Of a stretch of DNA of 64,000 nt, positions 8,595-41,500 are shown piece after piece. The notes beneath the pieces were generated by a model. That model searched no databases. It had not been told where the DNA came from and saw only the letters and a program-made list of their open reading frames with translations. The translations under genes were made by a program, and so were the position numbers. Source of the DNA: Luscinia megarhynchos (lineage: Eukaryota > Chordata > Aves > Passeriformes > Turdidae); contig CM067590.1 in NCBI GenBank assembly GCA_034336665.1, positions 3,567,748-3,631,747 of the forward strand, read 5' to 3'. How positions within the stretch are numbered: the stretch's first letter is position 1; every line of letters starts with the position of its first letter.

Positions 8595-11500
8595 CTGGGG
8601 GAACCAGAGCTGCAGGAGCTGCACCCCAGCACCACACAGGGCAGGGCAGCCACGAGAAGGAAGGGTTTCAGTCAGAGACACGGGGGAAGCAGCCTGCAGG
8701 TATCAGGGTTTTAGAGACACAAGGGATGGAGGCTGCAGGTATCAGAGTTTTAGGGATGGAGGCTGCAGGTGTCAGCGTTTTATCACAGACACAAAGGAAG
8801 GAGGCTGCAGGTGTCAGGGTTTTAGGGATGGAGGCTGCAGGTGTCACGGTTTTAGAGACACAAGGGATGGAGGCTGCAGGTGTCAGGGTTTTATCACAGA
8901 CACAAAGGAAGGGGGCTGCAGGTGTCAGGGTTTTGGTCACAGATACAAGGGAAGGAGGCTGCAGGTGTCAGGGTTTTGGTCACAGATACAAGGGAAGGAG
9001 GCTGCAGGTGTCAGGGTTTTAGAGACACAAGGGAAGGAGGCTGCAGTTGTCAGGGTTTTAGAGACACAAAGGAAGGAGGCTGCAGGTGCCAGGGTTTTAG
9101 GGAAGGAGGGTGCACGTGTCAGGGTTTTAGAGACACAAAGGAAGGAGGCTGCAGGTGTCAGGATTTTAGGAAGGAGGCTGCAGGTGTCAGGGTTTGGTCA
9201 CAGACACAAGGGAAGGAGGCTGCAGGTGTCAGGATTTTAGGAAGGAAGCTGCAGGTGTCAGGGTTTTAGGAAGGAGGCTGCAGGTGTCAGGGTTTTAGAG
9301 ACACAAAGGAAGGAGGCTGCAGGTGTCAGGGTTTTAGGGAAGGAGGGTGCAGGTGTCAGCAGACCTGCAGGTTTTGCTGGCATTCACAGGGGAGGGGAGA
9401 AGCTGATGCCAAAGCAGTTTTCAATTTGCCAGTCTGAGACCTGGGCACTGGAATAAAATAAAAGGAAAGAGGGGGAGCAAAGAGAGGGGTAAAGGAGAAA
9501 CAAGGAGAGAAAGGGAAAACAAAGGGGGAAGGCAAATAAGGGTGGTAAAAGAAGAAAACAAGGAGGGGAAATGAGAAAACAAGGGGAGAAAGAAGAAGAA
9601 ACAAGGGGAGAAAGGGAAATAAAAGGAGGGAAAGGGCAAGGTAGTCTAAAAAAATCTCCAAGTCTCTTTTTCCAGCATGGAATTAACTGAGGTGCTAAAG
9701 TTCAGACCCATCATCCTGAGGGCTGCACATAGTGAGATAAAAGTGTCATGCAGAGGGCAGATGGCACAGGGGATTCACTCTGAATATCTCTGTTGTGACC
9801 AGGAGAGCCCCATCTGCATGGGGTCATGCCCTGTGTGCCCTCAGCTGTGCATCATTTCATAAAACAAGTGACAAAGCTGGAGGGAGACCCTGAGGGAACA
9901 GCTCTCTTGGTGACTGAGCAGTGCAGGCAGCCAACTTTCTTTCCAGCCCAACAAGTGTGATGATTTAGAGGCCAGGAAGCCACAGCAGAGCCATTGACCC
10001 CAGCCTGAACGAGGAGCTGAGTCCCAGCACGGTCACACAGCACTGAAACTGCATCACTTTGTGCAGGGACAGACCCAGCACAGGCAGGAGCAGGATTTCT
10101 CCTCTTCCCACCCCATACACACCCCACTCACAGCAGGCTGTGCTGGGTGACTGCTCCCCGTCCAGAGGGTAAAACTGCAAGATAAAACTTCTAGGAATAG
10201 CAGCAGATCTGTGTTTAAACTGCTGCTGGAGCCAGCTCAGCTGTGCATCCTTCCTGCTCTCTGTGTACACTGCTCTAATCCAAACCAAAGCACTGAGGCA
10301 GAATTATTGCAGGGAGGAAAAGTCCCCCCCTGCTCAAAGCTGGCTTGATTTAAAGAGAACACTCATCAAGGCCTTTGAAAATGTTTGTTCTCTAGAAAAA
10401 AAATATCTGAGGGATCTTCCCTGTTGCCTCCCACATCCTCCCAGCACTGGGCAGGGGAGTCAGGCTCTGTTCACTCCCTCTTGGCCTCCTCCCTGTGAGA
10501 ACCTGCCAGATCATGAGCTCTTCTATGAATGGGTGATTGCTGTCCACCAGGGCTGGGATGGACATCACAGAACTGCCTCTTCCCAGGAATTCAGTGCTGG
10601 AGTCCAAGCAAAGGGCACAGGCCGACGTTTCCTCTGCACACAAACCACTCCCCAGCCCCAAATGTTTGTGCTGAGGCCAATGTTTGCTGAGCAGTGATGG
10701 GGGGAGAGGAAAAACAGCCCTGTGCCAGTTCAATCAATCCTGGAAGAGCTGCAGCCCTGTGGGGAACACTCCAGCCAGGGAATTTTGGGGATGACTCCAC
10801 CTGGAAGCAGAGCTCAGGCTGATGCTCCTGGTAGGAGCTGGTATGAGTGATTTAATTTAATTAAAAACAGAACAAAACAACCCCAAACAAAACACCACCA
10901 CCAAACAAAACTGTCATAATTCCATCTATAATTTCCTTCCAGTTCCAGCCATTAACCCATCTAATTACAAAAATAAAACTGTGCAAAGGACACAGCTGTG
11001 GGGAGAAGGCAGGGGCCAGAGAGCTGAGCCTTGGGGGGCTTTGGGTTCCAGCAGCACTGGGACCCCCAGCACTGCTGCCCACACACTGGACATTGTTTTC
11101 CACCAGATCCCTGCAGAATCACAGCTCTGTGATGTCAGCACATTGTCCTCCAACACCAGTGCCTGAGCTGTGGCTGTACCTCGAGTGCCTTTGGCAGAGG
11201 AGATTCAGGCAGTTTCAGAAGAGAATTAATGATCATAGCACCACTTCATCAGAGAGATGCTATCAGAGCTACTGGGGATCCCAAAATCCACCCAGATCCT
11301 TGTGGCCAAGGATGACAAGGATCTCAGGAAAGCCACAGCCAGAAGTTCAGGGAGATTCCAGTTAATAACTCAGCTGCTGCTCCAGGGCTTTCTATCCAAA
11401 CAGATACTGCAGCAGGCTGTGAAGGCACACCCTGAGCTGGGTCTGTGCTACTCAGCAAAATCCTGTTCCACCCTTTTGGGACTCAGTCATTCACCTGTGA

Positions 11501-23500: not shown

Positions 23501-26500
23501 GCACTGAAATGATCAAGAATGACCTTGGGGTGACTCTGTCCTACAACCCACTGAAAGTTCTGCCTTACCCTGCTTGGGATCCAGACAGAGCAGCAAGAGA
23601 GAACTTGGTGTTTTCCTGGCCCAGAGGGGCTGATCAGCAAACCCAACGTTCTGTGGGGAGCTGTTGCTATTTGCTAGGAGTGGCAAATAATAGCAACACT
23701 CTTCTTTTTGGGTGAAAGAAGCACTTTATTGAAAACTTGACCTATATTTATAGGATGGTTTGTGAATCTGAGTTAGGACAGCAATTCACTGGGCAACAGG
23801 AGAAAACATCCCATGTCTCATACATCACACACTGTCCCATGGTCAACACCAGCTGCTAATCTCATGTTATTGTCTTGGGTTGCAATGCAGGATGTGACCA
23901 GAAATGTGAATTCTGTCCCCATCTGCTGCAGCCGGGTAGGGCAGTGACCCTTATCTCCTGGCACATATTATCTGCTAATGGGCCAGCTTAAAACCAGCTG
24001 GGGCAATCATCTTTATCTTTCCACAGCCCATCCTCCCTCCAGGAGATATCTCCTGTTAATGGGCCATTGTTAAAAACCAGCTGGGGCAATCATCTTTATC
24101 TTTCCACAGCCCACCCTCCCTCCAGGAGATATCTCCTGTTCATGGCCATTGAGTCCCAGGGCATGGCTGATAAAATTACATCATCCCACTGGGAGATGCT
24201 CCAGTCAGGGGAGGAGCCAAGCCTTTCCTACCCAGATAAAAACTGAGATTTTGGACAGCAAGTTTCCATCTTTCCACTGGATTCCAGAGGAAAACTAGAC
24301 CTTTCCACATCATCCCTTCAGAGGAAAACTGCACCTTCTACAGGAGCACTGCTCCAGCTGAACCACATCTGCCACTGCAGGAGGATGCAGCCACCATTGA
24401 ATGGGACTGCTGCCAACACCCTGCCTGACTGACGGGTGTCAGCTTGGATTCTGACTCTGGCAGTGTTTTGGGATTGTTCTTTGTAATACTGTATTTCTAT
24501 TTTAATTTTCCTAATAAAGAACTGTTATTCCTAATTCCCCAGTCTTGGCCTGAGAGCCCCTTAATTTCAAAATAACAATAATTTGGAGGAAGAGGGTTTA
24601 CATTCTCCATTTCAATGAGAAGCTTCTGCCTTTATTGGCAGACACCTGTCCTTCAAACCAGCACAGTTACTAATTTCTTTCTATCTATAGGAAAGCCATC
24701 ACCCTGAGAAAGCAGTGCCCACAGGGAGCATTCCCTACCTGGTGCAGGTCTCCAGGATGACCTTGTACTCTCGGTGGTCGTGGTCTGAGGCGGGGTCCTC
24801 GTCGTCCCCCAGGGCTCTGTCCCTGTGCAGGGCTGGGGGGCTCTGGGGGGCAGAGCGCAGAGGGGCTGGGGCTGGCAGCTGCTGCTCTGCCTTGGGCTCC
24901 TTCAGGTTCACCAGCAGCTGGAAGGCTGGCTTGGCAATGGGGTCAGGGACATTGTACGTGACATCGATCTGCAGCAGGAGGAGGGAGAAGCAAATCACAT
25001 CAGCAGGGTTTATCACAGCTCCAGTGTTTCAAGGTGTCTGCAAATGTCCCTTAATGTTGCTGTTGGGGTTAGGAGAGTGGTGAAAATAATATAGCAGCAA
25101 AACTTTCTTCATGCAGAAGCAGCAAAAGCCCTTTATTAAAGAAACAAATACACTTATACAGAGTAGATCATGGTAGCAAGGACAGAAGTGATTTCATTGG
25201 TGCAAGGCAGGTAACACCTCTGGTGAATCTGCTTTCACCAAAACATCACATCTCTCACACAGCCTGCAGGTGCATAATCATTGTTATAATTCATTCTCTT
25301 AGCTTTTGCTTGAGCAGCCTGAGAAAATCCAAGCTGGTTCTTCCCTGGCTTTCACCAGTATCCCACACCTTAAGGATCAGCACAGACACAAGATCTCTTC
25401 AGAGGGGAGGAGTGGCAGGCACAGAGAGGCTTTACCACACAGTGATGTCTCTACAAAAGCTCTACCAGAGCTGGTACAGTCACATTGACTTCCTAAATTA
25501 AAGCAACACCACATTATAGAATATTTTGAGAAGAATTCCAAGTGTAAGCCCTTCCTCGCAGCAAAGTGGGACTACAAAAGCAGCAAACAGGCTGTGAGGT
25601 CAGAAGTCATCTGCTCCCATGCTTTCTCCAGCCCCATGACAGCCTTACCTGCATCAGACAGCAGCCTTCACCTTTGGCACTCACAAACAGCCCTGTTGGA
25701 ATACTGGGGATCTGGGGAGAACACACGGGTGAGACACAGACAAGACATGGCACTCAGAATGGAAATGAATATTAAATTTAGCTCTAGTCTGTACAAAATA
25801 CCTTTATAAAGGACACTGCACAAGTGAAGTGAGTGTGGTTTAGTCTCTTCACCACATGCACTTACAATGGCAGAGACAAACAACAGCACAAAATAAACAT
25901 CAGGCATTAGTTATGGTGAAAAATGCCTTTACTCAGGAGTGCTGTCTCCTTCACAGCAGAATCCAGCCACAAACCCACAGAAAGTCCCACAAATCTCAGT
26001 GCTTAACTTGTGCTTTCACCATCACTGATCCAAGTCCCTCATTCAGAACCCAGCTCACGTGGATTGCTTTAAAAACCTGCCTGCACAAAACCACCTACCA
26101 CTGCAGTCTGAAGGACTTTTTTATTCATCTTGTTAAGCTCAAAGGTCTCCTGGTAGTCCAGGTTAGTGGAAGCCAAGGAAATGGTCAGGTTGACTCCTCC
26201 AACATAAGAGAGGATGGCATATTCAGCCAGAGCCTGCAGGGCCACACAGGTGTCCTGGGAAGAGAAGAAGGAGAAACCAGAACAGTGAAGAATACAGGAG
26301 CACAGCAAATTCCAAACAGCTCTGCTCAGCTCCAGGTGGCAGAATCTTCCTTACTAATCCATATGGCAAAATGGATCAGGTTTTGCTCACTTTTCCTATC
26401 AAAGGCACCTGTGAGGACAAAGTCTGGGTTCCTTTCAAATTACCAGCCCAAAGAGGAAGCAGCAAAAGCTCTGGGAAGTTTTTCTTCTTACCAGAACACA

Positions 26501-29500
26501 AACAATTTCTGCCAGGAAGATGGAAACTCTGCATTCCTGATTTAATTGACAATGCATGCACCCCAGCTACCTTTCCCAGAGGCAGCCCACCTGAGTAGAT
26601 GAGAATCCCCCCAGTGCATTCCTCTGCTGTGAGAGCCACTTGACTACAGGGAGGGCAGAGGCCACGTCTCCCAGCAGTGTGTAGGTCAGAAGGGCATAAG
26701 ATGTCATTTCCACTTCTGCAGAGACAACTGAAAGAGGGATGAATTAAAAAAAAAAAAAAATTAAAATATCACCTAGAAGTGAGAATCCAAGCATGTCTAG
26801 AGATAGTTCTATGAGCATTTATAAACTGAAAAATAATTCTAAAAAGTTAAAAGTCTGTAGAAGGTGTTTCACCTCCCTAAGATAATTCTGCTTTCAACAT
26901 AAGCCTCCCTTCATGCAGTAGATAAGCAATAATAAAGATATTCACACAATAGATCAACTCCTTCTGCTTGACTGTATCCCACAAATAATTCCTCCCTCAT
27001 TCCAGTTCTACTCTGCTGCCCACACTCTTGTCCTGCCCTGGAGATTTTCATACAATACCCAGTCAGATCACTCTTGAACATTGCTGCACCTACATCACAT
27101 TCCCCCCCCAAAGAGTCAATGGCTTGAAAATTACAATAATTCACTATTTTTGTGGCTTTGACAGCCCAAGTGTAGAAAAATCAGCTGAAGTGTCAGTGAC
27201 CGTGACACAAATCCTTAGGTCCATTTGAAAACACAAAGATAAATACTTCTAAAATTAAATATACTTAAATTTCCTCAGATTTCCACTTTGAATTATTTCT
27301 CCCTGACAGAAGAGTGAGAGCCACATGGGATTCTGTTTCATAAAACTGGAGTGAAAGCTGAGGAGACAGCTGGGGCTGAAAAACCTGTCCTGTCTGGACC
27401 ACATCTTGTTGTGTCTCTCATTTATTCTTTCAGCATGATTTACCTGCCTTTCCTGAGCTCTCTTTTCTCTGGACCCTCCCCTCAGTGACAATTTTAGAAT
27501 ACTTTATGTTCTATAAACTATTCACTGCAACACATGCAGGCTGTGTGGCAGCCCCTTCCCTTTTCTCTGCCTTTGCACTGCAGGTTCCCAATTACCTGAT
27601 TGAGAGAGTCCATCATTAAACCCCATGAAGGTGTCTTCATCAGTGACAAGGGTTCCTGTGAGGCTCCAGTGAGTGAAGCCATCTAGGAGAAGAGGGCAGA
27701 GGGACACGGGTTTATTAGAGTTATTATAACTCCTACAGAGTTATAGGAGTGCAGCTGAGCCTCTGTACGTGGGAAGAGTCAAATTCCAATTTTGGCTCCT
27801 GTGCCCTGAGCTGCACTGTCCCTCCTTTTGGACACCCAGCCCTGGGCAAGGGGCTCCCTTTGGAACGATAAAGATGACTCAATGTGACAAATTGGATAAT
27901 TCTTGGGGTTTGGATTGAAATACACCATCAGGGAATGAGAGATGTTACAGGGCAAAGGCTGTCACTGTGAGGAGAGCACAGCAGAGCCTCTGAACAGCTT
28001 GAAATCACTCTGCTGGTTAGAGAACAGTGCTGCTGAACACCAGGGCTGTGGCTCTGATCTCTGTGGGGGACATTCACTTAGGAGCTGGTCCCTTGCAATT
28101 CAGGATATTCTGGGATTCTGCTGCACTTGCCTTCCTCCAGCATCACCACATGCATGGAGCCCTCTCCAAAGAGAGCCAGGAGCACCCTTGTCTAACAAAC
28201 CCAAACTGTGCCCCTCACTCCCCAGCAGCTCAAGTGCAGCTCCAGGCTGTGCTTGGCTGTTCCTGTGAGGGTACAGCTGCAGCCCCTACCTTGGGTGATG
28301 GCCATGCTGTTCATCTCCAGCTCTTACCTTGGGTGATGGCCATGCTGTTCATGCCCAGCCCCTACCTTGGGTGATGGCCATGCTGTTCATCCTGAGCTCA
28401 TACCTTGGGTGATGGCCATGCTGTTCATCCCCAGCTCTTACCTTGGGTGATGGCCATGCTGTTCATCCCCAGCCCCTACCTTGGGTGATGGCCATGCTGT
28501 TCACCCTGAGCCCATACCTTGGGTGATGGCCATGCTGTTCATGCCCAGTTCTTACCTTGGGTGATGGCCATGCTGTTCATCCCCAGCCCTTACCTTGGGT
28601 GATGGCCATGCTGTTCATGCCCAGCTCATACCTTGGGTGATGGCCATGCTGTTCATGCCCAGCTCTTACCTTGGGTGATGGCCATGCTGTTCATGCCCAG
28701 CTCTTACCTTGGGTGATGGCCATGCTGTTCATGCCCAGCTCATACCTTGGGTGATGGCCATGCTGTTCATCCCTGAGCTCATACCTTGGGTGATGGCCAT
28801 GCTGTTCATGCCCAGCTCATACCTTGGGTGATGGCCATGCTGTTCATGCCCAGCTCTTACCTTGGGTGATGGCCATGCTGTTCACCCTGAGCTCATACCT
28901 TGGGTGATGGCCATGCTGTTCATGCCCAGCTCTTACCTTGGGTGATGGCCATGCTGTTCATGCCCAGCCCATACCTTGGGTGATGGCCGTGCTGTTCACC
29001 CTGAGCTCATACCTTGGGTGATGGCCATGCTGTTCATGCCCAGCCCATACCTTGGGTGATGGCCATGCTGTTCATGCCCAGCCCCTACCTTGGGTGATGG
29101 CCATGCTGTTCATGCCCAGCCCCTACCTTGGGTGATGGCCATGCTGTTCATGCCCAGCCCCTACCTTGGGTGATGGCCATGCTGTTCATCTCCAGCTCTT
29201 ACCTTGGGTGATGGCCATGCTGTTCATGCCCAGCCCTTACCTTGGGTGATGGCCATGCTGTTCATCCTCAGCTCTTACCTTGGGTGATGGCCATGCTGTT
29301 CACCCTGAGCTCATACCTTGGGTGATGGCCATGCTGTTCATGCCCAGCCCCTACCTTGGGTGATGGCCATGCTGTTCATCTCCAGCTCTTACCTTGGGTG
29401 ATGGCCATGCTGTTCATCCCCAGCCCTTACCTTGGGTGATGGCCATGCTGTTCATGCCCAGCCCTTACCTTGGGTGATGGCCATGCTGTTCATCCTGCGC

Positions 29501-32500
29501 AGTGTGGTGGCTGCAGAGGGGCTGTGCAGCAGGGTCAGGGCGTAGGCACTCAGGGCAGTGGTGTAGGGATCTTCTGCTGAGTACAGGTTGGACTCCAGGA
29601 AGTGTTTTGCTTTGTCAACAGCTCTTCTTTCTTCCTACAATACAGGGGAAAGAGCCCAGACAGATGTACCAGTCTCTGAAGTTAGAATCAATTTATTATT
29701 AGTGACTTTGTGCCCATTAAAAAACAGAAACATCCAAACAAAACCCAACAACAAAATCTAAAAAACTCCCACAATAAACTCAGCAAGATACATTTTGCTC
29801 TCTGTAGAATGGCATTGACACTTTCCTTTCCCTAAGAAAAGCCATGCATCAAAAATTGAAAGGGTACAAACAGCAGAGCAAGAATGATTTAGGCTAACAC
29901 TGAGACACACTTTTCCCCCTAAAGCTGCAGAAATTCCCTGCCCCTGCAAGGCAGCAGATGAACAGGCAGGGGTGAGCTCTGTGCTGGAGGTTTGATTGTG
30001 TTCCTGACACTCCAGAGCGTCTGGCAGACGCCAGAGGATAATAAAGGCCAAGGTTCCCAGGGGTCCCTGCAGCCAACAAACATGTTTTATTAACTCCCCC
30101 AATGACCTCACCATGCAGGAACGTGGCTCTGATAATTTATAGAAACAATTTAATTGGACTTGATGTAATTTGGTTTCCTTTGATTTCCCTGTGGCACTAA
30201 CCTTCCCCTTCCTCATTTCCTAGCTAAGATCATTAGGAGCACTCACAAATCTCCTCTAGGAAAACCATTAGAATGCACAGAAACTGCCCTGCTGGGGCTG
30301 CCTTGACACTCAGCAGCCCAGAGGGAGCATCACATCACTGCTCAGAGGGGACACTGCTGACAGGGAGGCAGGAAGTTGCTCTGTGAGCTCTGCAGGCTTT
30401 CCTGAATTTTTAATAAGGTTGAAAGCCTTCCACTCCAACAAGGACAGGGGGTGAGGGGGTATCTGTCTGCACAGCAGGTCTCACTCTTCAAGCTCCACAG
30501 GGGTGGATGAGGAGTGCTGAGGTTATCAGAGTTCCTGAATGGGCACTGGCTGCTCTGACACCTCCACAAACCCACGGGGCTGTGCCTGAATGGGCCCTTT
30601 TGTCTGAGAGCAGATCACCAGGAGATGCTGCAACACCCACTAACCCTGCTCTTCTCATCTCCCAGCAGTTCTGCCTGTGCCCAGCCAGCACTGCCCTCTC
30701 CCTTGGCTGAGGAGCAAGGCAACATCTGAGGGGAGCATCTTCCCAGCCCCACTTAGTGGGAATGTGTCACTATAATCCTGTATGACATCTCCATTCTAGT
30801 GAGCTGCATGCTGGCAGGAGCACACCAGAGAGCAGCAGCACTGTTTCACCAGGAGTTTTAAGGAGGAATCCCTAAAATACCACTTGTACTGGAAGTTTGG
30901 GGTTTTTTTCCACTGTAACTGGCCATTCCTACATAGCTGCTTCTCTTTTTTGCAGTGTTCCTGCTCTGTCTCATTGCAAAGAACAGAAACATTTTTCTGC
31001 AGAGCCCTCAGTCCAGCAGATTGCAGGAGCTCAGCTCTCCAAAGGCACTGGAATCTAACAGCAGTAGCATTTTGGCCACTGCAGCCAAGCCAGACCACAA
31101 GAGCTCTCTGGATCCCCAAGTTAAACTGCTTTTAGCACCAAGCCAGGATTTCTGAGTCTCTGCAGGCAAGAGACCAGGATCTGCACAGGCTGCACTCACA
31201 GCTTGAGCTAAGAGGCAGAAAACTCTTTTTGCAGCAATTTCTTGGAGAGGCTGAGGGATGGGGCTGCAGGGAAAGTGTTTTGCTCTGGTGGAAGAATCAT
31301 GAGCTGATGGCTGAACCACCTTGAACAACTTCAGAACAGATTCCTTAACCTCAGAACAATCCCAAGGCTTTCCAGCAGCCTCTCTTCCCTGGGTGCTGTC
31401 AGTCATTCTGGAGAGCACAGAACCTCTGAAGGCAAACAGCAGCAAAATGAAGGTTTTATAAAAAAAAAAACAGGCAGAATTTTTGGAGCTGTTTTAACTG
31501 AGATTTTGTTACCTCAGAAGTGACACCTGTTTCCAGAAGAGATGCAACCACATAAGCTGTCAGGGAGATCTTCCCATGGATCCCACCCTGGAAGGGCAAA
31601 CAACACAAATGACTGCAGGAAAACTGGAGAAAAGGATGCTGGAGAAAAAAAAGAGACTCTGAAGCAATAAAAAGGATGTGTTTGAACTAGAGGAGAAGCT
31701 GAAGCATCACCAAATTTCTTTTTGCACACAAGGAGTACAAAATTTAAGAACCCAAGCCCACACTGGTTGGAGCCAGGACCCGGCTGTCCCCGGCCTGAGG
31801 ACACATTTAATTATTTTGTACTAATTCAGTATTTTGTAAGACTTCACACCTTGGTTTCCATCCTCTGGGGACACCCCACAGACAAATTCTGACAGACCTT
31901 TCTAAACTGAAATTCCCCTGGTTCTTCCTGCAGCATTCCGGTCTTTCAAGTGCAAAATTCATATTCAGACTGATCATTCATGCTCTGATAATAACTTTAA
32001 AAATGTCCTTGCTGCAAGTTGAACCTGTGTCGTTTTTACCTGAATGTCCTTGTTTAATATCCTGCCCATAGCAGGGAAAGAACCATCTTCTTTCTGGTGC
32101 TGGATGATCCAATCTTTGGCAGCTGAGAGTTCTTTGGGGTCAATGAAAATAAATCCACGAGACTGAGCAAAGGACTTGAGGACAAAAGCTGTTAACCTGT
32201 AAAAGTTAATTAACCATCTTTTCTGAGAAAACAAATTCAGAATAAAGTACCTGTGAGGAAAAAAAAACCAAACTATATTCTTAAAAAGCACAAATTGAAA
32301 ATAATATTGTTGGGAAACACTAAATATTGTTGTTAAAACTCTCATGGGACATAAAAGCACGTGAAAACTGTCCAGGCTTTGGATAAGAAAAGGATTAAAA
32401 GTCAACAAACTAAACAGAAAAGTAGAACTCAAAGGTGTATTTGTCATAATTAAGGCACACTCTGAAATATAATTCTTTTTTATCCCAAATGACTGAAGTT

Positions 32501-35500: not shown

Positions 35501-38500
35501 ATTCCCTTTGCCTCAGTGCTCCCAGCAAGCACAGAAAATTACAAGTGAAATCTGGAGCCAAGCAGAGGAAGCAGCACTGGGCTTTTGCTGCTGAACACAA
35601 GAAATATCTCACATATTACATTTTATATTTATATTTTCAGAGGAGAACCACCTAACCCTGTCACCTCTGATTTCATGACATGACTATTGTCTGACTCACA
35701 CACAAGAGAGCTTTGTCCCTTTGGGTCACTCTTGTTTTTAATGATCTCTGAATTCTTACTTGTCCTGAGAATTGCACTTAGTTATAAAACTATTTTGCAT
35801 GTGGCTCTTCCCAAAACAAATGCTGAGAAAAACAGTGGGGAAAAAAAAAGAAAAAAGAAAAAAAGGTTGTTTTGAGCTGTTTAGTAAAGTAGGACAGGAC
35901 ACTGAAAGGAGAGAACCTAGAACCATGCAATGAAGGTTTTTAATGACTTTGGATACTGAATTTTGATTTTTGGTGTGCTAAGAAAATACTATTTTTAAAA
36001 AAGTTATGAAAAGAGTCATAATTCTAGTGACTTAAGGCTTGAAAAGATAATTTATGAATAAGGCAAAAATCCCTACATATACTAATTTTTACTAAATTTC
36101 ATTTTTGAGTCCTTGAGGAAGAACCATCCCTTTACTTTCTAAAATGTTTAAACATAGAAATCAGCAAAGATGAAAAAGAGTGATAAATCAATAAACATCT
36201 GAACTAGGAGTTACTGAAGGGAATCACAGGTTACATATAAAGGGAAAACTTCTTGCCATCAAAATCTGCCAGACTGTGAGACTATCCTGCAAGAAATGAT
36301 GAATCCCCATCACTTGGACTATTCTTGATTAGAAAAAGTGACATTTAAAGGAAAACTATTAATTCAAAGCCTTTTCTCCATCTGTAAATTTAACTGCAAT
36401 GAGTTACCTTGAACAAGGTAATCAGTGGCTTCAGCCTCCACCTCGTGACTGAGCTGCTTGGTTTTCTGCAGGTATTTCAGGACAAAGACATTGGGAGCAA
36501 AATGGATCATGTTCTGCTCCCCACAGCCAAAGGGCAACCTCAGCAGCTTGTCCAGGTTGTTCAGAGTAGGACCCATCACATCTCCTGTTTGAGGAAGAGG
36601 GGAAATGCTCAGGATCAGGCAATTCAGGTTTCCTTTTGGTGTTTTATGATGAATCCCCCCCTGACTGCACTGATGTCTCCTGGCTACCCCAGAGCCAGCT
36701 TAAATAAACTGTGACATAGTGGGAAGTCCTTCAGCTGTTAAATCTCAGCCCTTCAGTCTCTCGTTGGATTAAAGAAATTCCACATTTCAGCCTTTGATTA
36801 TCCATGACTTCCCAGTTTAGAACACAACTTGTGATGAGGATGCCAATGAAATAAATACCATGAACTGTAACAGACAGTGCCCCTGCAAAGCCCCTCCTGT
36901 GGCATCAACTTTAAACCTCTGTCAACCCAAACAGGCTTCAAACAAGCGACAAAGAAACCCCAAGGAATTATCTGCCCCAGAATTAAGCAGCAATAAACCT
37001 TTTTAAATGCCTGTGACTATCTTATCTGGTGTGCATTACTCAGAAGTAACAGCTGGAGCATCTGTTCACATTTGATAAGGGGTACCTAAGTGATACCTCC
37101 TGATAATTGATACCTATTATTGAAGCCGTAGCTCTTTCTGATCCTGGAATTATGTTGTGGGGAACTCCAAGAGTAAATGCTTCATTGTGATTTTCATCAG
37201 TCTCTTCTTTTCTCCAAATTTTAAACTCTCCCATTGACCCCCAGCCTGTGGAAAAGCCAATGTACTTCACCTCAAGCTGTTTGGGGACTGTCCACTCCAC
37301 AATAATAGATTCGTTTAGCACCCGAGTACCGTGGCCAACCTGAAAGGGACAAGAGAGCATGGAGGAGTTCCAGGAGCCAGAGCCTCATGGGCTGGGACAC
37401 CTGCACTGCAGTGCCTCTCTGCTTCCCACCCACAAAACCATCCAAGGAAGCTCAAGGAGGATTCCACAGGCTTGGCTCTCAAGGCTTCCATCACTAAAAA
37501 TACTGGGGGCTGAGGTCCTGAGAAGATAACAGTGGTTATAACAGTGATTTCAATGAGCATCATTTGGGCAAGCTTTGGTCCATATCCCTGCACTTCTTGT
37601 CATCCCATTCACTTTTATAGGGTTTTCACTAGCTTTTGGAATTTTCCCATGATTTTTTTAGCCATTTCATTTTTTAGCAACTTATCAGCAGGCTCTTTTT
37701 TTTTCTTTCTTCCATGATTTCAGGATGTTTTTAGGACTGATTTTAGCAAATTTTGGTCCATTTCCCTGAACCACTTGTCATCCCATTCACTTTCAGTGTT
37801 TTCACTCAGTTTGGGAATTTTGCATTGATTTCTCCTGCCATTTCATTTTTATAGCAACCTCTAAACAGGCTCTATTTTTTCATTTCTTCCTTGATTCCAG
37901 GACGCTTTTAGGAGTAATTTTAGCAAGTTTTGGTCCATTTCCCTGTACTTCTTGTCATCTGAGGCCATTTAAACGTGGTCACCCCATTTCCAAATTTGCA
38001 GATTTGTTGTGACCACAACAACCTCAGGGAGAAAAAGGCAAGGAGTGAAATTCCCACCTCCTACAAGGAAAAACTGGTCTGTGTGTGCTCAAACTCTGTT
38101 TAAAAAGAGACTTCACTCAGGAGAATTCAGTACCTGGATAACTCCATTTTCCCAGCTGATCCAGAAGCTGCGGAACTCATCCCAGGAGAGGATGCCAGGT
38201 GTGTCCCTGCTGGCCACTGGCTCTCCCATCTTGCTGCTGGAGATCCAGGTTCTGGTGTTCTGCTGTCCCCCGAGGACGATCTCTGCCATCTCTGCCATGT
38301 CGTGGGGGCCAGAGGACAGTGCCAGGTGAGCATCATTGTGAGCCTTCACTGCAAGGTCAAAGTGCCTCATCTGGGCTGGCTTCTGCAGGTACTGGTACTC
38401 ATACTTGTTAGGGGTGGAAATATGGATTTTCTCTAGTCAGAAAAACAAGGGAATGTTGTAAGGATGACAGCTCATCTTATAATCATCAAAGACTGACATT

Positions 38501-41500
38501 CAAAGAGATCTTTCCTAAGTATATAGGGGTTTTTTCCAGCTTCTTTTAAAGTATTAAAATACATATGGATGTTTCTTCTCATGTTTTATTTCTGCCCCCT
38601 TCAAGGCAGAAAACCCTTCAAACTGCTCAGCTGAATTTTCACTCAGCAAGTGACTTTTCAGTTCTAATTTAGTGGTCAAAAGCATCTCTGTTTAGCTACT
38701 GGAGCCAACTCTGAGCTATCCAAATCTCTGGCAGAAAGGACAGACTGATTCCAGAACTGAATCTTAAAACACCAGCTGAAAATAAAGTACAGTCCCAGTT
38801 ACTGTCCACAGTGCTGAATACTTAAACTGTTCCATAAAGTAAAGGAATTTAATGGCCACTTCCAGAAATCACTTGGGCAGTTAGAGCAAATTCATAATTA
38901 GCCAGCCAGGTAAGAAAGACTCTTTATTTACAAGTTCTTCCTACACACCATAACTCATCAATCACAGAGAAATGGAAACAAAGATTTTTTTCAATTTTTT
39001 TTTTAAACAAGATGAATCCAAATGCTTCTTTTTAAAACTGATTCAAACAAACTGAATATTTCATTCAAACCATGAACTTACCATTTGGGCAGAAGAACAC
39101 ACTGTAGGTGTATTCTCTGGACAGTCCCTCTGGCTATAGAAAGACAGAAATCCACACATAAACCACAGAGCTTGGATTAGCAAGAATAGATTCCAGTTTT
39201 ACTTGGAAAATACAGGAATTATTTCTGCTGCTGTGCAGTGGTTTATACCCTTTAGAGAAAAGGGATGGCACTGTGTTCTGTTGCTAGAGCAGTGCTAACC
39301 ACTGCCAGAGAACATTCCATTTTATCATATTTCTTAGATTAACGGGGCAAGCTCATCCCATAAAATTTCCATTGCTTTTTCTCCTGAACAGCATTGAAGA
39401 TTCACCAGAGGAGCTCAAATGGGCTCTTTCTGTACAAGTACCACCAAAGCTGATTATTTCCAATCTCCCTAACAGACCACAAATCAGTTGAGGATCTTTA
39501 TAAACCTATCCATGTTTGATTTCACAGTTTTCCCAAGCTTTTTTTCCCCTGAATTATCATAAATTTGTGTTTTCTCACCTCAATAATGACACTGCTGCGA
39601 ACATAATCCACCCCCACAGGGGTCCTTTTGTCCATGTGAGAATCCTCTGAGTGTTTGCCACTCTTCAGGGTCTGCATCCCCTCCTGACAGCAGTTGGTCC
39701 CACCATAGGCAAAAGCTTTTGCTAAGAAACAGAAGGGAAAAGCAGCAGAGATTTTGAGATAGGAAGATCTCTAGAAGTTAGGGACCCAAACTAATTAGAA
39801 ACAGCTGATTAACAATACATCAAGTGCTGTAATTACCTCCCATATTCCCTTTATCCACATCTGAGTGAGCACATCTAAAACTAATCAATATTTGAACAAT
39901 TACGGGGCAACAGAGAAACTCTCTCCTAGTTTTGGGTGTTGCACAGTTTTTACTGGGATTATCTGCACAGAATTTGTTGTTATTCTCTTGTTTAAATATT
40001 TCCTCTGGTCTCTTCAGGGAAATGTAACAGCCCAACCTTGCATGAGCAAATATCACAACAGGAAAAACGATGACCAGAGAATGTCCTGATGTTTGTTTGC
40101 ACATTCTGTGCATCACAGGCAGGAAATTTGTTCCTGCGATAATAAGGTTGAAAAGCCAAGTTGCCATCAAGTGAAATGAAGGAACTGGGAAAATAGGGAA
40201 ATAATAATTTTCTCCTGAGAGAGGAATAAGAAGCACTTGTAAAACCCCTTCAAGCAGCTGCTTTGAGCTCTGTGTACCAGTGATGTTGCTCAGGCCCAGC
40301 TCGTTGAAGGACAGAACGATGGAGGTGGGCTTGGCTTCCCCAGGGGCCACACATTTCTTCCTGGTCAGGTGGTGCTTCCCAGGGTGCCCAACAAACTTGA
40401 TGCCTTTTGGGACAGAAATCTTCACGTGGACCTGTGAAAGTTTTGGAAATGTCATTTATTGGAAATGTCATTTATTGGAAATGTCAGCTGCAAAGCCAAA
40501 CTGATCTATAATCAGTGAATGATGTGAAACCCACAGAATTCTACATAAAAAATTTCAGAATGCAGATATTCATTCTTCAAAGTTTCTAGCCATGGGTTTG
40601 ACTGCTCAGCAATTCTGCAATGGGAGATGCTATTGGATCCTGGGAAGATGGGGAGTGTGAGAAGAAAACACCAAGGGAGATGGAATTTCTTGGGGAAAAA
40701 AATCCACCAAAATAATCTATTTGTGGCAGCTTTTTGATTATGCAGGAAATCCTTCTTTGTGGTTCTGCACGATATTCCAAATTGTCTTCCCTGCCTGTTT
40801 CAATATTTGCTTTTCTGAAGTGCTGGAAGACACTTCAGCCCACTACATGTGTCTCAAACTGAAACTAAATAAAGTGATGATGTTTATTTGAGCTGAGAAC
40901 AGCAATATTTATCTCCTGAGAACATCTCTGCTGACCTGAGCTCTCTGTTAGCCTGGTACCTTGTCTACTGTGACTCAGCTCACCAACGAACCCTGGTGAT
41001 AATTGTCCTGGGTTACAGTGTAAAGATGTGCCCAAAGTCTGTATTCTGTCACCATCTGTCAAACCAGGTGGGACAGTGATTCTTATCTCTGTGGGAGATA
41101 TCCTCTGCTAATGGGCCAGCTGTTAAAACCAGCTGGGGCAGTGTTCTTTATCTTTCCCAGGACCCATCCTCCCTCCAGGAGATATCTCCTGTTAATGGCC
41201 ATGGAGTCCCAGTGCATGACTGATAAAATTACATCATCCCACTGGGAGATGCTCCAGCCAGGGGAGGAGCCAAGCCTTTCCTACCCAGATAAAAACTGAG
41301 ATTTGGAACACCTAAGCAGCCCTTAGCCACTGGTTTCCAGAGGACAAGAGCTACCAGGATCACTGCCAGGATTTCTACAGGATCACTGCTTTGAGCAGAT
41401 CAATTCATCTGGACTGCTATCACCACCCTGACTAGCAGGGTGTCAGGTTGTATTCTGACTCCGCCAGTGGTTTTTGCTTTTGTATTATTGCATTTATTTT

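Follow-up and report, generated by a model that had tools for sequence, protein, structure and literature searches.

The stretch of DNA examined here, 64,000 nucleotides from Luscinia megarhynchos that we call the window, is crossed on its minus strand by CPAMD8, a gene linked to eye development in people. The bird protein P0006 aligns with 37 stretches of the window, from 58.1 down to 8.4 kb, and among these are both of the exons that flank the feature that concerns us: a 38-bp unit present in 32 copies, head to tail on the minus strand from 29497 to 28281, whose first copy straddles the end of one exon and the beginning of the intron that follows (Table 1). That exon starts in phase 0 and ends after codon position 1, and its acceptor (ttgtag/GAAG) and donor (CAAG/GTAAGG, the slash marking the exon-intron boundary) can be read directly from the letters. 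Pfam places it in the alpha-macroglobulin thioester domain (TED_complement, 2.2e-07), bird CPAMD8 proteins align by tblastn to 29634-29470, and a Methyltransf_FA domain, which is also listed for relatives of CPAMD8, is found by Pfam in two exons upstream.

Table 1. Features of the array-bearing part of CPAMD8 (positions in the window)
Feature	Positions	Strand	Evidence or remark
CPAMD8 exon ("exon 30" of the earlier note), 166 nt, EERRAVDK..., thioester (TED) domain	29469..29634	-	Pfam, tblastn, splice sites read
Copy 1, exonic part: last 29 exon bases, CAGGATGAACAGCATGGCCATCACCCAAG	29469..29497	-	the same 29 bases stand unchanged in copy 30
Copy 1, intronic part: functional donor, GTAAGGGCT	29460..29468	-	U1 duplex -10.0 kcal/mol; protein continuity
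Later array copies (2-32), with another 31 CAAG/GTA donors	28281..29459	-	
In-frame TGA if donor 1 is skipped, intron +15 to +17	29452..29454	-	translation
Array-containing intron (length 1785 nt; array, 1186 nt or 66%)	27684..29468	-	acceptor ttctcctag/ATGGC
Next CPAMD8 exon	27597..27683	-	tblastn, 100% over 29 aa with P0006

With the joined exons as the query, 5908 relatives were found, and we examined the best 120, which are mostly gene predictions, include seven with bird names and list some species in several rows. Top-ranked by E-value is P0001, which carries a sturgeon label ("UNVERIFIED_CONTAM") and has 89% identity; our reading of the gene as avian rests on P0002-P0006, which are bird proteins with 97-98% identity over the thioester region, four of them CPAMD8 by name and one hypothetical. 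Lamprotornis superbus gave the highest crude identity among the eight proteins compared. In all 120 of the best 120 of the 5908 relatives, the 14 residues across the copy-1 junction are contiguous, with no insertion, and because the protein runs over that junction uninterrupted, copy 1 must be the true end of the CPAMD8 exon. The earlier note had put the functional donor at 29469/29468, and there it is. Translation past donor 1 reads ...AITQGKGWA and then stops, so the use of any later donor adds an in-frame TGA, exactly as had been claimed when it was said that TGA is met within one unit and that only the first donor is productive. Elsewhere in the gene, a 21-residue peptide at 25631-25711, which the predictions for Lamprotornis and Melospiza include as coding sequence, also has an open frame in the window; it could be an optional exon, or else an artefact of gene prediction.

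The array itself is not subtle. TRF reports it as a single array (28280-29493, period 38, 31.9 copies, 92% matches), and cutting unit by unit at a conserved word gives 32 copies, with steps between copies of 38 bp in 30 of 31 cases and 39 bp in the other. A 25-base core, AACAGCATGGCCATCACCCAAGGTA, occurs exactly 31 times and never in 100 dinucleotide shuffles; copy 14, with one T-to-C change, is the only copy without it. The word CAAG/GTA is present in all 32 copies, and the donors so formed span 29468 to 28289. The assertion with which this work began, that a 5′ splice site had been amplified into about 32 near-copies all carrying CAAG/GTA, therefore stands. A short unit in many copies, placed on an authentic exon-intron boundary and repeating a splice signal, is what one would call a boundary-spanning minisatellite, and the broader proposal that a minisatellite made of an exon end and its donor could affect splicing of CPAMD8 is likewise supported. 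An open reading frame within the array was considered and rejected (none of the six frames stays free of stops for more than 50 aa, and each contains 11 to 26 of them), as was an already described structured RNA (Rfam has no match at the gathering score in 27600-29700). The exact 25-base core has no match in the viral or the prokaryote genome collections, as is expected for vertebrate DNA.

What is the unit made of? The 29 bases that close the exon, CAGGATGAACAGCATGGCCATCACCCAAG, running from CAGGATG to CAAG, occur without change twice only, in the exon itself and in copy 30. Because copy 30 carries these 29 bases intact, the unit is 29 exon bases plus 9 intron bases, the latter reading GTA-N-G-R-G-C-T in all 32 copies but one, copy 25, whose base at +7 is A, and since 29 + 9 = 38, exon end and intron start account for the whole of it. 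The earlier note had correctly seen exon end, donor and intron start in the unit, but it had divided them as 22 exon and 16 intron bases; judged from the alignment of copies, the outermost exon-derived bases have diverged in the later copies other than copy 30, and the 22 + 16 split mistakes these diverged exon bases for intron. The tetranucleotide GCAG lies near both presumed breakpoints, in the intron after the last copy (GGGCT-GCAG-CTG) and in the exon (CTGC-GCAG-GATG), and we infer that the initial duplication may have started from this short stretch of microhomology.

The copies differ from one another in a peculiar way. Nine of the 38 columns are polymorphic (-29 to -25, -15, +4, +6 and +7), and these are spread over exon-derived and intron-derived columns in proportions that do not differ (6/29 versus 3/9, Fisher P=0.66), which leaves the claim that the exonic half is nearly invariant while the intronic half varies without support. 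What the variation does instead is cluster where one unit meets the next. From -24 to +3, one column in 27 is polymorphic, whereas in the 11-bp stretch at the unit-to-unit junction 8 of 11 are, a difference with Fisher P=2.8e-5 for boundaries that were picked after seeing the data. A permutation over all 11-column arcs gives P=8e-4 (7e-4 without the two singleton columns), and counting columns -29 to -26 as one event gives P=0.019 (0.024 without singletons). All copies but one of the 32 are identical over the last 24 exon bases. The uniformity of the core, -24 to +3, is unusual, and the effect is moderate; at least three explanations may account for it. The junction, which is rich in G, may be more mutable; homogenisation may have the coding exon as its anchor; or the donors may be under selection. 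As for the order of the copies, the 31 spacers between cores fall into 15 sequence types arranged irregularly, adjacent identical pairs number 3 against 1.8 in shuffles (P=0.27), and a search for a higher-order repeat of units found no repeated triplet among spacer types.

A spliceosome arriving at this intron would be offered 32 donors, and one may reasonably ask whether the first has anything, apart from being first, to recommend it. We calculated U1 duplex energies with an 11-base U1 end, its modified bases treated as U. Predicted pairing is -10.0 kcal/mol for donor 1 and for three others, and -9.5 to -9.7 kcal/mol for 17 more, which makes 21 of 32 strong; the remaining 11 have T at +4, and their predicted pairing is weakened to between -5.7 and -6.2 kcal/mol. 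Of the 31 donors after the first, 20 thus differ from it by no more than 0.5 kcal/mol. Five donors of other exons range from -6.5 to -9.9 kcal/mol, and having been picked by hand, they prove little. Folding offers no help either. The predicted probability that the donor 9-mer is unpaired is 0.022 for donor 1, and over the array it has a median of 0.043, a mean of 0.052 and a range of 0.001 to 0.144, the 9-mers of copies 27, 30 and 32 being at the low end (0.001-0.003); in a control of 154 GU sites from another intron stretch the mean is 0.034 and the median 0.008. The idea that the later donors are hidden by RNA structure is thus unsupported, mean accessibility being 0.052 in the array versus 0.034 in the control. 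Because neither U1 pairing nor accessibility singles out donor 1, it would be picked by position alone. Donor 1 is the donor nearest to the acceptor of its exon, and its use makes an exon of 166 nt, compared with 1345 nt for an exon ending at donor 32.

We think it probable, on the sequence and its parallels, that the array is a minisatellite of the kind called a "mirage" in amphioxus, born from a tandem duplication over an exon-intron boundary and later amplified, in which splicing takes donor 1 and for the most part disregards the rest, or makes with them transcripts prone to NMD, and the whole is tolerated rather than selected. On this account, a short tandem duplication in an avian CPAMD8 would have happened to span the boundary, and ordinary minisatellite turnover, by slippage or unequal exchange, would have brought it to 32 copies. 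Copy 1 would have remained the end of the exon and the provider of the working donor, and the other 31 donors, lying inside a 1785-nt intron, would mostly be passed over because the exon is presumably defined by its own acceptor and body, to which copy 1 is nearest, and because copy 1 is the first to be transcribed. Messenger RNAs with a premature stop and many exons downstream are lost by NMD. Transcripts made with a later donor, which meet the TGA at +15 after donor 1, would be such targets, and there may be a cost of mis-splicing that grows with length, as in the VNTR of human ABCA7. Exon definition is described as predominant on human pre-mRNAs in PMC6035042. Four things speak against this account: most of the later donors are not weak, predicted accessibility does not mark out donor 1, polymorphism avoids -24 to +3 in a way that simple neutral divergence does not predict (P of about 0.02 with conservative counting of events), and the known precedents are not all benign.

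Those precedents deserve a closer look, for arrays of splice donors that span a boundary are already known from human CBS, human ABCA7 and amphioxus, and the bird CPAMD8 array is a striking new example of them. The CBS 31-bp VNTR is located at exon 13/intron 13 (PMC1395315), and PMC2630376 names it c.1444_1467+7(16_21) and mentions single-base differences among its units. By our own reading of that name, the unit takes 24 bases from the exon and 7 from the intron and is present in 16-21 copies. Like the CPAMD8 array, then, it has a unit that lies across a 5′ splice site in many slightly differing copies; it differs in being human, with lengths that are polymorphic in people, whereas ours is known from one assembly, with 32 copies of 29 + 9 bases. 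PMC2630376 also describes a two-copy duplication of the CBS intron 7/exon 8 boundary in which splicing favours the more distal copy, which counts against any simple rule that the first copy wins.

The ABCA7 VNTR in intron 18 has a 25-bp unit, the first two bases of which are the donor of exon 18, and about 12 to 427 copies (PMC5954066, as are the figures that follow). It resembles the CPAMD8 array in beginning at the donor of an exon, in its slightly varying copies and in the frameshift that follows when the donor one unit further on is used, and it differs in that its unit is intronic, starting at GT, whereas that of CPAMD8 has 29 exon and 9 intron bases. The transcript that retains one unit amounts to about 2%, as read from the order of two values in the text; skipping of exon 19 rises and expression falls with a longer array, and alternative transcripts, chiefly those that skip exon 19, exceed the canonical one in 90% of samples from one brain area. 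The earlier note had posed a dilemma: either the outermost of 32 donors must be picked, or much of the transcript is lost. The ABCA7 data answer it in part: slipping to the next donor is rare there (the 2% just mentioned), but other mis-splicing is common and grows with length.

In amphioxus, the "mirages" of Adh3, the globins and TnC, with similar repeats in PGBD5, are reported in PMC3087553 and PMC3902484 to leave regular splicing undisturbed. Like our array, they are described there as minisatellite-like tandem duplications over exon-intron boundaries, on the 5′ or the 3′ side; they belong to a cephalochordate, have 6 and 3 units in two BflGb6 haplotypes and have been proposed as raw material for intron gain. 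Also close are the Rogers model, in which introns are gained by tandem duplication of AG/GT proto-splice sites (cited in PMC3087553), and the potato RdRp gene, where such a gain by AG/GT tandem duplication is described (PMC4974935). There, as here, a segment containing AG/GT is duplicated in tandem; unlike those cases, the CPAMD8 copies sit inside an existing intron, and no new intron is evident. Judged by title and the start of the abstract, the papers found on CPAMD8 together with tandem repeats describe no such array and those found on minisatellites at splice sites in birds include no bird case, and we claim no wider absence.

If the first donor is used and the others are merely carried along, why should the core have stayed so uniform? 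One answer, which we hold tentatively and at rather less than even odds, is that exchange or conversion with copy 1, itself constrained by the protein, keeps homogenising the exon-like core while the bases at the junction drift. This refines the tolerated minisatellite rather than opposing it, and the confidence that we place in the two overlaps. The identity of 31 of 32 copies over the last 24 exon bases and the location of the variation at the unit junction are as one would wish. However, the C that copy 1 has at -29 is replaced by G in 25 of the 31 copies after it, so the complete exon end is not being copied afresh into the array; spacer types show no recurring run of three or more; and a G-rich stretch that is locally more mutable would give the same pattern. 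A bolder answer is that selection has kept the extra donors, as a U1-binding cluster that aids exon definition, as fail-safe donors or as a means of setting CPAMD8 dosage through NMD. Were this so, the length of the array would set how strongly the exon is defined or what share of transcripts NMD removes, and the near-invariance of -24 to +3 in all copies would be its signature. We consider it unlikely. That core is indeed nearly invariant in 32 copies while 11 junction columns vary, GTA and the G at +5 are intact in every copy, and two-thirds of the donors (21/32) pair well with U1. Yet a third (11/32) carry T at +4, with predicted pairing cut to between -5.7 and -6.2 kcal/mol, the invariance of +1, +2, +3 and +5 has a chance probability of 0.12 given three polymorphic columns among nine intronic ones, columns +8 and +9 are just as invariant, and fail-safe use would yield a stop codon. 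Nor do the particular roles suggested beforehand gain from our analysis: we found no positive evidence for a sponge for U1 snRNP, nor for a tunable splicing VNTR, although ABCA7 offers a human parallel for the latter, and protection from early polyadenylation we judge unlikely, for the array intron has a single AATAAA, some 33 nt short of its acceptor, compared with 35 over the gene as a whole (60200-8400).

More radical readings fare worse. Tandem arrays are known to be prone to misassembly, and the true locus might have one or a few copies that were inflated or mis-joined; but 15 spacer types in irregular order with no repeated triplet are not what simple duplication errors would be expected to leave, both flanks run cleanly into exon and intron, and we regard an artefact as very improbable. 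Less probable still is a recursive splicing ratchet in which each CAAG/GTA acts as an AG/GT acceptor that regenerates a donor, so that the intron is removed stepwise. AG does directly precede GT in every unit, and multiples of at least two units could conceivably serve as small introns, but the bases before the AG (UGAACAGCAUGGCCAUCACCCAAG) contain no polypyrimidine tract. The tolerated, boundary-spanning minisatellite remains our preferred account, and it makes of CPAMD8 something like a natural competition experiment, in which near-identical donors follow, in 31 of 32 copies, the same 24 exonic bases and differ mainly in position. The way in which the array intron is spliced would reveal to what extent a 5′ splice site is chosen by position and exon definition as opposed to sequence. 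With it, a bird gene joins those of humans and lancelets in which a minisatellite encloses a splice site and expression can depend on length.

The window holds other repeats. A second CPAMD8 minisatellite, at 8674-9360, in which ACACCTGCAG occurs 13 times on the minus strand, ends some 85 bp upstream of the last mapped exon; all 17 of its AG dinucleotides fall within CTGCAG, which places acceptor-like sites just upstream of a real acceptor, and it has no visible derivation from that exon. At 40443-40486, a 16-bp unit (ATGACATTTCCAATAA, minus strand) is repeated 2.8 times, with two AATAAA words, and abuts TTTCACAG, the acceptor of the CPAMD8 exon that follows it; at 37574-37959, in the intron between the two Methyltransf_FA exons, there are 2.2 copies of a 177-bp unit. 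A further array, at 790-1877, consists of about 79 copies of the 14-bp unit AGTGAGTAACACAC; its nearest mapped CPAMD8 exon is 6.5 kb off, its plus-strand consensus contains the donor-like word GTGAGT, and its minus strand is open in all three frames over most of its length.
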